Shown in pieces: positions 38,903 through 44,545 of a stretch of DNA of 64,000 bases. Source of the DNA: Gammaproteobacteria bacterium (GTDB lineage: Bacteria; Pseudomonadota; Gammaproteobacteria; Eutrophobiales; Eutrophobiaceae); assembly GCA_030829985.1 (NCBI GenBank), contig JAURNW010000035.1, forward strand, positions 68,091 to 132,090, read 5' to 3'. A program made the translations under genes and the position numbers. The notes below the pieces were generated by a model. It was given only the letters and a program-made list of their open reading frames with translations, had not been told where the DNA came from and ran no database searches. Position 1 is the first letter of the stretch. Each line of letters opens with the position of its first letter.

Positions 38903-39349
38903 ATGGTTGTAAAAAAGAAGTCCGTTGTAAAAAATATTGCTTTGGTCAAAGTGCTTGACACGGCATTAGCAAATCTTGATATGGCAACTACCAATGGCGC
39001 GAAGGTATTAGCGCTGGCGACTAAAAATAGTAAGCAATCTGCGCTTGAAGGAAGACGTCTGAGTAAAAAACGCGTAACTTTAATTAAGCGTCGTAAAGCG
39101 GCCGCGGCAAAAGCACAAAAAGATCCTGTTGCAGCTAACAAGGCTGCATTGAAGGCAGTTGATAAAGAATTGGCAGCGATCAGAAAAGCAGCGGCAAAAA
39201 ACAGAACAGTTAAAGCAGCTAACTTTGATGAATTGTCTGGTTTACGCACAAGTTGTAAGCGATTAAATGCCTACACAAAGGCAATCGCAGCAGCAGACAA
39301 AGCACTGAATAAACCAAAGAAAAAGGTCAGAAGACGTAAAGCAGCATAA
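38903..39349 (+). CDS. Lys/Ala-rich basic protein (histone H1-like composition)
   Basis: A 148-residue protein with an AGGAG Shine-Dalgarno 9 nt before the ATG. By count it has 28 Lys, 12 Arg and 33 Ala against 9 acidic residues. It opens KKKSVVK and ends NKPKKKVRRRKAA. In between are alternating helical segments such as KRRKAAAAKAQKDPVAANKA, and one more ordinary stretch (NFDELSGLRTSCKRLNAYTK). The composition is like AlgP or histone H1-like nucleoid proteins, but the repeats of AlgP are absent. DNA or RNA binding is inferred only from charge. Confidence 0.65.
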   Translation: MVVKKKSVVKNIALVKVLDTALANLDMATTNGAKVLALATKNSKQSALEGRRLSKKRVTLIKRRKAAAAKAQKDPVAANKAALKAVDKELAAIRKAAAKNRTVKAANFDELSGLRTSCKRLNAYTKAIAAADKALNKPKKKVRRRKAA

Positions 39350-40922: not shown

Positions 40923-41774
40923 TTACGCTGTGATTGTCTCGCGCAATTTTTTCATTGCATTGTTTTCTATCTGCCGTATCCGTTCGGCGGAGACTTCATG
41001 TATTGCAGCGAGTTCGTGCAAGGTTGCTTTATCTTCGGCTAACCAGCGTTTGGCAATGATGTCTTTACTGCGATCATCTAATTGCGCTAGCGCATGCAGT
41101 AACGATTCCTGACTTTCATCATCGAGCTGTGCGGTTTCGATTAATTCTTCCGGACCCGCACTTTTATTTTCAAGGTAATAGGCTGGTGCATATACGGATT
41201 CATTATCGTCATCGTCACTCATGCCATCGAAAGACGCATCGTAATTACTCATGCGTTTTTCCATTTCCATGACTTCACTTGGTTTAACACCAAGATCTTT
41301 TGCAACAGCGTCGACTTCGCTTTGATTTAACCAACCTAAACGTTTCTTGGATGAACGCAGATTAAAGAACAGTTTGCGCTGTGCCTTGGTGGTCGCAACT
41401 TTAACAATGCGCCAGTTCTTAAGAATGAATTCATGCATTTCTGCGCGTATCCAATGTACGGCAAATGAAACGAGTCGGACACCGACGTCTGGATCAAAAC
41501 GTTTTACCGCTTTCATCAGGCCCACATTGCCTTCCTGAATCAGGTCGGCTTGTGGTAAACCATAGCCGCTATAGCCACGCGCGATTTTCACAACGAAGCG
41601 TAAGTGTGACATGACTAAACGACGTGCCGCTTCGATATCGCTTTCATCTCGAAGGCGTCTGGCCAAAACCTGTTCTTCATCAAGAGACAGTATTGGCACC
41701 CGATTGACGGATGAGATATAGCTTTCTATCGACCCGGTCGGTAATGCGAGTTGTAAGTTCGTTAGCTGATTCAT
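40923..41774 (-). CDS. rpoH: Heat-shock sigma factor RpoH (sigma-32)
   Basis: A 283-residue sigma-70-family factor that directs transcription of heat-shock chaperone and protease genes. It has [24 protein letters not shown] (region 1.2), [20 protein letters not shown] and [19 protein letters not shown] (region 2), [23 protein letters not shown] (2.4), the RpoH box [10 protein letters not shown] that separates sigma-32 from other sigmas, and a C-terminal helix-turn-helix [22 protein letters not shown]. Length is normal. It lies downstream of ftsX but has its own promoter region with a CIRCE element 43 bp before the ATG, suggesting HrcA control. Confidence 0.98.
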
Positions 41775-41817
41775 ACCCTTTTCCTATTAAGTAAATCGGC
41801 ATCTATAATGCGAAAGT

Positions 41818-41844
41818 TTAGCACTCCAAAGCTATGAGTGCTAA
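41818..41844. promoter_or_regulatory. CIRCE element (HrcA operator) upstream of rpoH
   Basis: TTAGCACTC (41818-41826), a 9-bp spacer, and GAGTGCTAA (41836-41844): a perfect 9-9-9 CIRCE inverted repeat. It begins directly after a candidate rpoH -10 box, so bound HrcA would block transcription start. hrcA itself is not in the window. Confidence 0.93.
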
Positions 41845-41872
41845 TTTTTAGAAAAGTTCGGTTCAAAGTCAA
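41845..41872 (-). promoter_or_regulatory. Candidate sigma70 promoter of rpoH
   Basis: On the minus strand, TTGACT (41867-41872), a 16-bp spacer and TAAAAA (41845-41850). The transcription start would fall inside the CIRCE element. A second possible -10 (TATAGA) lies between CIRCE and the gene. Hexamer matches are moderate; the call rests partly on the operator position. Confidence 0.5.
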
Positions 41873-41919: not shown

Positions 41920-42921
41920 CTAGATGGGTTCGATAGCGCGTAAATGGCGTTTTACGGCGATCCATGAGCCGACGAGGCCCAAGGCAATACCAGTTCCTAA
42001 TAAAATCAATGAGTTACATAGGCCAAGACCGATAAGCTCAAAGTCACTGGAGTAGAGGTTAGCCAATTGTTTTACTGGTCCGTCCAGCAGTTGCATCGAT
42101 ATGGTAATCAACAGCCAGGCAATGATACCGCCAAACACGCCATACCAGAGACCGCTATACAGAAAGGGTCGTTGTATAAAACTGTCTGTGCCACCAAATA
42201 GTTTGGTGATCTCTATCTCTGAACGTCGGTTATGTATCGCCAGTCGAATGGTGTTGCCGATGATCAGTAACACAGCGACAGCCAGTAGCGTCGACAGGAT
42301 AATGATAAGTCGATTAATGATATCCAGTATATACAGCAGTCTTTTTATCCAACCACTATCAAATTGAGCGCTGTCCACTTCGGGCATCGCTTCGAGTTCT
42401 TTTATCAAGTCTTCGGTTTGAGTGTCGTTCCTGCCATCAAGCTTCGGTTTAACGAGGATAACGTTTGGCAACGGGTTCTCATCAAGCGTATCGAGAGCTT
42501 CAGCAAAGCCGGATATTTTTTGATATTCAGACAATGCGTCTGCTCGTTTGATCAATATCGTTTCGTCGATAGTATTTTTGCCAGACAAGCTTGTCGCTAA
42601 TTTGCTGGCCTCAGTTTCATCAACATCTGTTTGCAGAAACAGGGTTATTTGTAACGAACCATCCCAGCTTGATGAAACATAGCGCACGTTATCCAGTAAT
42701 AGATAGAAGCTTGCCGGTAAGGCGAGTGAAATACCAATCACGGCAGTGGTTAAAAGATTACTGACCGGAAATTTAATATATTGCCCGAGGCTGAATATAA
42801 ACGCCTGAGCATGCTGCAACAGCCACATGTCAAAGCGTCGTTTTATCTCACTCTTGCTGGCAGACTTGGTCGGGCGCGAGTTCTTTTTTCTATTCGCTGG
42901 TCTCATCTTTGCCCCGATCAT
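41920..42921 (-). CDS. ftsX: Cell division protein FtsX
   Basis: A 333-residue permease-like partner of FtsE that regulates septal peptidoglycan hydrolysis. A basic cytoplasmic N-terminus (RPANRKKNSRPTKSASKSE) precedes the first membrane helix. A periplasmic domain with SSWDGSLQITLFLQTDVDE and LPNVILVKP follows (about residues 75-195), then three more helices ending GLVGSWIAVKRHLRAIEPI. Length is normal. Its ATG overlaps the ftsE stop as ATGA. It is last in ftsY-ftsE-ftsX, with rpoH next. Confidence 0.96.
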   Translation of the reverse strand: MIGAKMRPANRKKNSRPTKSASKSEIKRRFDMWLLQHAQAFIFSLGQYIKFPVSNLLTTAVIGISLALPASFYLLLDNVRYVSSSWDGSLQITLFLQTDVDETEASKLATSLSGKNTIDETILIKRADALSEYQKISGFAEALDTLDENPLPNVILVKPKLDGRNDTQTEDLIKELEAMPEVDSAQFDSGWIKRLLYILDIINRLIIILSTLLAVAVLLIIGNTIRLAIHNRRSEIEITKLFGGTDSFIQRPFLYSGLWYGVFGGIIAWLLITISMQLLDGPVKQLANLYSSDFELIGLGLCNSLILLGTGIALGLVGSWIAVKRHLRAIEPI

Positions 42922-43592
42922 TCTGTCGGTGTCCCACTGTGAGTCAAGATGCGGCCCATCTTGAGAGTGATAATGCGTTTTGACATGCGTTTAATCATAT
43001 CAAGGTCGTGACTGGCTATAAGCACAGTTACGCCAACCTGATTAAATTGTTCAAATAATTTCATTGTGTCCCAGGAAAGCGCCGGATCAAGATTACCAGT
43101 TGGTTCGTCAGCCAATAAGATAGCAGGCCGATGGACTACTGCTCTTGCTACACCAACGCGTTGTTGTTCGCCACCGGATAGCGCCATGGGGTAGCTATTC
43201 GCTTTTTGTAATAAACTCACCTTATCCAGGGCCGCTTGTACGCGTTTACGAATTTCCTGATGACGGTAACCCGCGATAACCAGTGGTAACGAGACATTAT
43301 CAAACACAGTCCGATCATTTAGCAGGCGGTGATCCTGAAACATGAAACCAATATGACGCCGGAAGATAGGAATACGTGCGTTACGAACGCGTTCCAGATT
43401 TTGTCCGTTGATAATAATTTGTCCGCGCGTATGACGGTCAATCAGCGCAATTAAACGTAAAAGTGTACTTTTGCCTGCGCCAGATCGTCCGGTAATGTAC
43501 ACCATCGCGCCACGTTCGATGTGAAGGTTAATATTACGCAGGGCTTCATTGCCGCCCGGGTAACTCATATGGACATTGGTAAGTCGGATCAT
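42918..43592 (-). CDS. ftsE: Cell division ATP-binding protein FtsE
   Basis: A 224-residue ABC ATPase that powers FtsX at the divisome. Walker A is GRSGAGKSTLLRLI (near residue 36), the Q-loop follows in FMFQDHRLL, the signature is LSGGEQQRVGVARAVVH, Walker B is ILLADEPTGNLD and the switch His is in LIASHDL. MIRLTNVHMSYPGGNEALR is the standard N-terminus. Both ends overlap neighbours by 4 bp (ATGA), so ftsY, ftsE and ftsX are translationally coupled. Confidence 0.98.
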   Translation of the reverse strand: MIRLTNVHMSYPGGNEALRNINLHIERGAMVYITGRSGAGKSTLLRLIALIDRHTRGQIIINGQNLERVRNARIPIFRRHIGFMFQDHRLLNDRTVFDNVSLPLVIAGYRHQEIRKRVQAALDKVSLLQKANSYPMALSGGEQQRVGVARAVVHRPAILLADEPTGNLDPALSWDTMKLFEQFNQVGVTVLIASHDLDMIKRMSKRIITLKMGRILTHSGTPTE

Positions 43593-44545
43593 GATTCTGC
43601 TACAAGTAAGGCATCAATAAACTCAGCCGCATTAAAAGGCCGCAAGTCTTCAACCTGTTCGCCTACGCCTATAAATCGAATAGGAATGTTTAATTCTTCT
43701 GCCAGTGAAAAAACGATGCCTCCCTTTGCAGTGCCGTCAAGCTTGGTTAAAACAATACCATCAACACCGATTATTTCATTAAACTGTTTTGCTTGTATTA
43801 ATGCATTTTGTCCGGTTCCGGCGTCCAGCACCAATAAAACTTCACTTTGTAAATCCGCATCAAACTTATTGCCGATACGATGAATCTTTTTCATTTCATC
43901 CATCAGGTTGTCTTTATTATGTAAGCGACCTGCTGTGTCAGCAATCAAGACATCGATATTATTTGCACGGGCGGATTTCAACCCATCAAAGATGACAGCG
44001 CCGGAATCGGATCCGTGGGATTGAGCAATTACCTTGATCGCATTGCGCTCGCCCCAGACTTGTAATTGCTCGATTGCCGCTGCGCGAAAGGTATCACCTG
44101 CCGCCAGCATCACACTTTTACCTTCAGACTGCAGGCGTTTGGCCAGCTTGCCGATAGTCGTTGTTTTGCCGACACCATTCACGCCAACGACCAGTATAAG
44201 ATAAGGTTTGTTTGGAATGTCTGGAATGGTTAGTGCTTTTTCGACCTGTTTCAGCGCAGGTAACAAGACTTGTTTCAATTGCTCCAGCGGATTTTCAGTC
44301 GAATTCTTTTTAGATTCAGCCTTTAAAAGCTGAATGATCTGATCAGTCGTTTTCATGCCGATATCTGCCAGAATTAAACGATCTTCCAGTTCTTCTAGTG
44401 TGGCATTATCAATAACTGTTTTGTTGCGGCTAAAGAGCCCGCCAAAAAGACCGGTGCGTGTACGTTTCAGACGTTCTGCAAGTGTTGCACTCTCGCTCGA
44501 TTCTGCCGGATTTTTTGCGCCGCTTTTTTTCTTGAAACCAAACAC
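43589..44545 (-). CDS. ftsY: Signal recognition particle receptor FtsY
   Basis: A 318-residue SRP GTPase that receives ribosome-nascent chain complexes at the membrane. The start is GTG at 44545 (FGFKKKSGAK). The acidic A domain of E. coli FtsY is reduced here to a short charged lead (about 25 residues). The N domain follows, then the G domain with GVNGVGKTTTIGKLA, the insertion box with DTFRAAAIEQL, DTAGRLHNKDNLMDEM, TKLDGTAKGGIVFSL and the C-terminal IGVGEQVEDLRPFNAAEFIDALL. It is divergent from the M16 peptidase genes. Confidence 0.97.
   Translation of the reverse strand: MFGFKKKSGAKNPAESSESATLAERLKRTRTGLFGGLFSRNKTVIDNATLEELEDRLILADIGMKTTDQIIQLLKAESKKNSTENPLEQLKQVLLPALKQVEKALTIPDIPNKPYLILVVGVNGVGKTTTIGKLAKRLQSEGKSVMLAAGDTFRAAAIEQLQVWGERNAIKVIAQSHGSDSGAVIFDGLKSARANNIDVLIADTAGRLHNKDNLMDEMKKIHRIGNKFDADLQSEVLLVLDAGTGQNALIQAKQFNEIIGVDGIVLTKLDGTAKGGIVFSLAEELNIPIRFIGVGEQVEDLRPFNAAEFIDALLVAES

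Follow-up and report, generated by a model that had tools for sequence, protein, structure and literature searches.

The heat-shock sigma factor gene rpoH of an uncultured gammaproteobacterium is preceded by a perfect 9-9-9 CIRCE element (41818-41844, minus strand) that probably serves as an HrcA operator overlapping a sigmaE (RpoE)-type rpoH promoter, so that HrcA would block sigmaE-driven rpoH transcription. We found the element in a 64,000-nucleotide stretch of contig JAURNW010000035.1 (here called the window). What the DNA shows directly is the operator, the extent to which it is conserved and occurs together with hrcA, and the motif and geometry of the promoter.

The rpoH gene (40923-41774, minus strand) encodes a sigma-32 of 283 amino acids (TIGR02392, 405.7 bits against a cutoff of 323), and a likely ribosome-binding stretch, AGGAAAAGGG, lies before its ATG (41776-41785, minus strand). 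When up to three mismatches were allowed, TTAGCACTC-N9-GAGTGCTAA at 41818-41844 was the window's sole CIRCE match (shuffles gave an expectation of 0.03), and it has no mismatches. In the orientation of rpoH, the left arm occupies 41844-41836, the loop 41835-41827, and the right arm 41826-41818, which leaves exactly 43 bases to the ATG (41774, minus strand). The pattern search and the TIGR02392 assignment agree with the first-pass annotation, which had described a mismatch-free 9-9-9 CIRCE 43 bp before the rpoH ATG. The element sits in the ftsX-rpoH gap of an ftsY-ftsE-ftsX-rpoH cluster (ftsX, 41920-42921, minus strand, the upstream neighbor of rpoH; ftsE, 42918-43592, next to ftsX; ftsY, 43589-44545, next to ftsE), and this gene order is the same in Escherichia coli. 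Elsewhere in the window, 38903-39349 encodes a small Lys/Ala-rich protein of 148 amino acids with a histone H1-like composition.

The presence of hrcA in the genome had been set beforehand as a test of HrcA control of rpoH. The genome (2.17 Mb, 35 contigs, completeness rating 100%) encodes hrcA as an intact 353-amino-acid frame (PF01628, E = 2.3e-66, over the cutoff). A genome-wide search for further CIRCE copies (up to three mismatches) returned exactly three sites, at rpoH, groES (58 nt upstream of the gene), and hrcA (35 nt upstream of the gene, heading hrcA-grpE-dnaK-dnaJ). Because hrcA is present and CIRCE occurs only at rpoH, groES, and the hrcA-grpE-dnaK-dnaJ operon, rpoH is very likely under HrcA control. 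The proposal of the first-pass annotation that HrcA governs rpoH is thus supported by the repressor gene, by the two other CIRCE copies, and by family-wide conservation of the element and its class-wide tracking of hrcA (see below). The operator is that of classical HrcA/CIRCE control (groESL and hrcA-dnaK), and the repressor gene is likewise in the genome. In contrast to the classical targets, the target in the window is the heat-shock sigma factor itself, and the operator overlaps a predicted ECF-type promoter, whereas classical CIRCE elements follow a sigma-70 -10 box.

The CIRCE sites of the other two operons have features of their own. The groES loop, nominally free, is conserved and starts with ACT (89%, 89%, and 93% at the three positions; 27 sites, including L001:1501-1527), a pattern that differs from that of the rpoH and hrcA sites. 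All 15 hrcA sites collected (L003:1501-1527, L004 to L010, and L200 to L206) carry TTTGCACTC in place of TTAGCACTC, and ATT follows the element. The operator is possibly weaker for it, or a promoter, TTGCAC-N17-TAAATT, may be embedded here.

We then surveyed 130 rpoH loci, 50 from the genome itself and from its genus, family, and class and 80 from named genomes, calling CIRCE at up to two mismatches (a few loci were duplicates of one genome). The 86 loci from hrcA-bearing genomes comprised 76 with CIRCE, 3 with a diverged CIRCE, 6 with none, and 1 that was too short. The corresponding numbers for the 44 loci without a detected hrcA were 37 with none, 6 with CIRCE (several from incomplete metagenome-assembled genomes), and 1 too short; relatives in these counts are not independent samples. 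On the RpoH tree, hrcA changed at least 12 times and CIRCE 11 times. A strict sister-pair test of hrcA against CIRCE gave about 1.9 same versus 0.3 opposite, with too few well-supported pairs for significance. A CIRCE upstream of rpoH was also predicted in 2004 for Geobacter sulfurreducens (PMC545781, Table 8), where it is perfect and located at -51, and the other targets there, groESL and hrcA-grpE-dnaK-dnaJ, are those of the window genome. That species is a deltaproteobacterium, and the part of PMC545781 available to us does not report an overlap of CIRCE with a sigmaE promoter. Given CIRCE at 76 of 86 hrcA-bearing loci and the G. sulfurreducens prediction, HrcA control over rpoH appears to be a common state in hrcA-bearing gammaproteobacteria, not an oddity of this genome. 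The hierarchy had been described at first as differing from that of E. coli. E. coli lacks HrcA, and the same survey and PMC545781 indicate that the arrangement is not unusual.

A few loci had unusual elements. Four of them (L091, L104, L140, and L161), with Pseudoxanthomonas, Xanthomonas, and Luteimonas among their sources, have a diverged rpoH CIRCE with GCAGTC in its left arm; two of these four pair this arm with GACTGCTAA, and the sigmaE-type -35 element is kept. Locus L166 has a tandem pair of CIRCE-like repeats before rpoH, the upstream copy being TTAGCAGTC...GAGTGCTAA.

The distribution also bears on whether the repeat works as an operator at all. It might be a relict CIRCE with no regulatory effect, and some rhizobial groESL operons do have a CIRCE that does not control heat induction (PMC3989490). 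At rpoH, however, both arms are near-invariant although the loops and flanks differ between species, and CIRCE is mostly absent where hrcA was undetected, so a relict has only the slimmest chance of being the right reading. Alternatively, the inverted repeat could act in the mRNA, as a stability hairpin or a thermometer. Folding of a transcript that contains the whole repeat does give a perfect 9-bp hairpin (minimum free energy, -18.5 kcal/mol), but this energy is only modestly better than that of shuffles (z = -1.7), and the ribosome-binding stretch is not paired with the hairpin itself. Across loci, the start codon lies anywhere from 10 to 312 nt away, the presence of CIRCE tracks hrcA, and with a sigmaE start inside the element the mRNA would contain just one of the two arms. 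With unremarkable folding, no pairing with the ribosome-binding stretch, and a variable distance to the ATG, we rejected the hairpin or thermometer as very improbable.

To return to the operator, we focused on the promoter beneath it by aligning 78 rpoH promoters on their CIRCE elements. The alignment contained one strong conserved upstream block, G/T-GAAC-T-T at -16 to -10 relative to CIRCE; this is the sigmaE -35 element (GGAACTT; PMC8103513). The loop of the rpoH CIRCE starts mostly with T, A, A (62% T, 65% A, and 69% A), and together with the TC that ends the left arm it forms TCNNA, a sigmaE-type -10 element, 16 nt after the -35. In the window, the predicted -35 is CGAACTT (41854-41860, minus strand), 10 to 16 nt before CIRCE, and the predicted -10 is TCATA (41833-41837, minus strand) after a 16-nt spacer, with TC being the end of the left arm and the remainder belonging to the loop. 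The former assignment comes from the 78-promoter alignment with its controls and from a holdout search, and the latter from the loop composition at rpoH compared with the groES and hrcA sites. From this geometry, transcription would start approximately at 41826-41828 (minus strand), 5 to 7 nt past the -10 and inside CIRCE.

The groES and hrcA CIRCE sites, drawn from the same genomes, served as controls. GAAC was found at -15/-16 from CIRCE in 52 of 78 rpoH sites, 0 of 27 groES sites (P = 1.7e-10 by Fisher's test), and 1 of 15 hrcA sites (P = 1.6e-5). Since nearly all control sites lack GAAC at this position, the sigmaE motif layout is specific to rpoH and not a by-product of CIRCE. In the holdout search (369 gammaproteobacterial genomes, mostly outside the first set but with some overlap with the discovery set), the composite GAAC-N11/12-CIRCE occurred in 129 genomes, compared with 1 for a control of the same composition (CAAG). 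All 30 composite loci that we opened lay upstream of rpoH, at 21 to 312 nt. Culturable relatives that share the layout include Aromatoleum buckelii (L151) and Plasticicumulans lactativorans (L141). The conserved promoter under the rpoH CIRCE is therefore most likely of the sigmaE (RpoE) type and not of the sigma-70 type.

The first-pass annotation had instead seen a candidate -10 box one base before CIRCE, as part of a sigma-70-like TTGACT-N17-AAAAAT (41844-41872, minus strand). HrcA would then sit over an ordinary sigma-70 promoter (TTGACT with TAAAAA or AAAAAT abutting CIRCE) in a copy of the groESL layout. TTGACT at 41872-41867 and AAAAAT together match sigma-70 at 9 of 12 positions, ending at CIRCE, and the groES sites of the same genomes show exactly such a design, with all 27 following TTGAC promoters (TTGACA type). 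In contrast, TTGAC occurs at this position in only 3 of 78 rpoH promoters, the match is at chance level (1 found, 0.7 expected) and unconserved, and conservation falls on the sigmaE element instead. We thus rejected this -10 box as probably a chance match and regard a lone sigma-70 promoter under the operator as unlikely.

Less easily set aside, if still doubtful, is that two promoters overlap CIRCE, sigmaE and vegetative sigma-70, putting both basal and stress transcription under HrcA. The sigma-70 -10 would here consist of the end of the right arm and the three bases that follow it (TAAAAT or TAAACT). Bases 27 to 29 from the start of the rpoH CIRCE are A, A/C, and T, with T in 94% of the 78 sites; among the sites listed, those of groES mostly lack this T and those of hrcA all have it. 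Such a promoter has no separately conserved -35, however, and in HrcA-minus genomes the bases at the equivalent distance are unconserved. For 41815-41817 in the window and the homologous positions (A, A/C, T), the sigmaE reading leaves the conservation unexplained, and an overlapping sigma-70 -10 might explain it.

The sigmaE-type promoter remains our preferred assignment, and we looked for its sigma factor in the same genome. The genome encodes rpoE (TIGR02939, 302.9 bits against a cutoff of 236), followed by RseA-like and RseB-like frames (named by reading the frames, not by family search). The window motif CGAACTT-N16-TCATA fits the rpoH P3 type of pattern, with a -35, a spacer of about 16 nt, and a TC-rich -10. 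The first base of its -35 is off consensus and TCATA is a weaker form of the -10; in several other members of its genus, the -35 element has drifted (GAATTT, GAATGC, and TAAATC). Exact GGAACTT-N16-TCNNA was not enriched genome-wide (3 matches versus 5 in the reversed control), and no clear copy of the motif was seen before rpoE itself, so the specificity of RpoE here is assumed from relatives. A scan of the genome for sigma-32 promoters gave ten matches. One, TTGAA-N14-CCCCAT (L173:1501-1525), is positioned 67 nt upstream of an Hsp20-like gene, which would fit a sigma-32 regulon acting downstream of rpoH; another precedes a tRNA-synthetase-like gene and is inside another frame, and the remaining matches had no qualifying downstream gene.

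Genomes without hrcA suggest how the composite may have arisen. Most of their CIRCE-less rpoH promoters retain (G/T)GAAC-N16-TC, and in about two thirds of these promoters the match had a P value of ≤0.05 relative to shuffled versions of the respective 250 bases. E. coli MG1655, in which the profile search gave no HrcA match as a control, has no CIRCE before rpoH but has TGAACTT-N16-TCTGA 121 nt before the gene. This motif fits P3, the sigmaE (RpoE)-dependent promoter of E. coli rpoH (PMC8103513), and its 16-nt spacer is that of the predicted window promoter. The simplest history would be an old sigmaE promoter that was overlaid by CIRCE, with CIRCE lost along with hrcA. We lean, by a small margin of confidence, toward the sigmaE promoter with an HrcA operator in its -10/start region being the ancestral two-input rpoH gate of Gammaproteobacteria, and E. 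coli P3 a remnant left after loss of hrcA and the operator.

From this arrangement we infer how rpoH would respond to stress. Envelope or heat stress would free RpoE, which would recognize GAACTT at 41860-41854 and the TCNNA -10 inside CIRCE and begin transcription within the element. As long as chaperonin capacity is sufficient, HrcA would occupy CIRCE and keep rpoH off; with the -10 and the predicted start site thereby occluded, the RpoE holoenzyme would be unable to open the promoter. The dependence of HrcA on GroEL is known from the Bacillus system. Heat or unfolded protein would disable HrcA and release rpoH alongside groESL and hrcA-grpE-dnaK-dnaJ, and published work, summarized in PMC8762339, describes a loss of HrcA binding to CIRCE upon heat or other stress. 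The rpoH gate would then read "sigmaE active AND HrcA inactive."

HrcA control of rpoH is known in kind, and the new point, provisionally, is the sigmaE-CIRCE composite. We found no description of the composite in the literature searched, and no paper there treating HrcA, sigmaE (searched as one word), and rpoH together; a Proteobacteria-wide regulon paper mentions neither HrcA, rpoH, nor CIRCE. The textbook picture of rpoH regulation was drawn in E. coli, which has no HrcA and in which no repressor opposes sigmaE at P3. If our reading of the composite is right, sigmaE and HrcA jointly govern the positive heat-shock regulator in many gammaproteobacteria; the E. coli scheme would then have arisen from this one by simplification, and E. 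coli would be the exception. Chaperonin status could then feed back transcriptionally on the synthesis of sigma-32, beyond its activity and stability. An ancestral gate of this kind, if true, would have fused envelope stress, sensed through sigmaE, with cytoplasmic chaperone capacity, sensed through HrcA.
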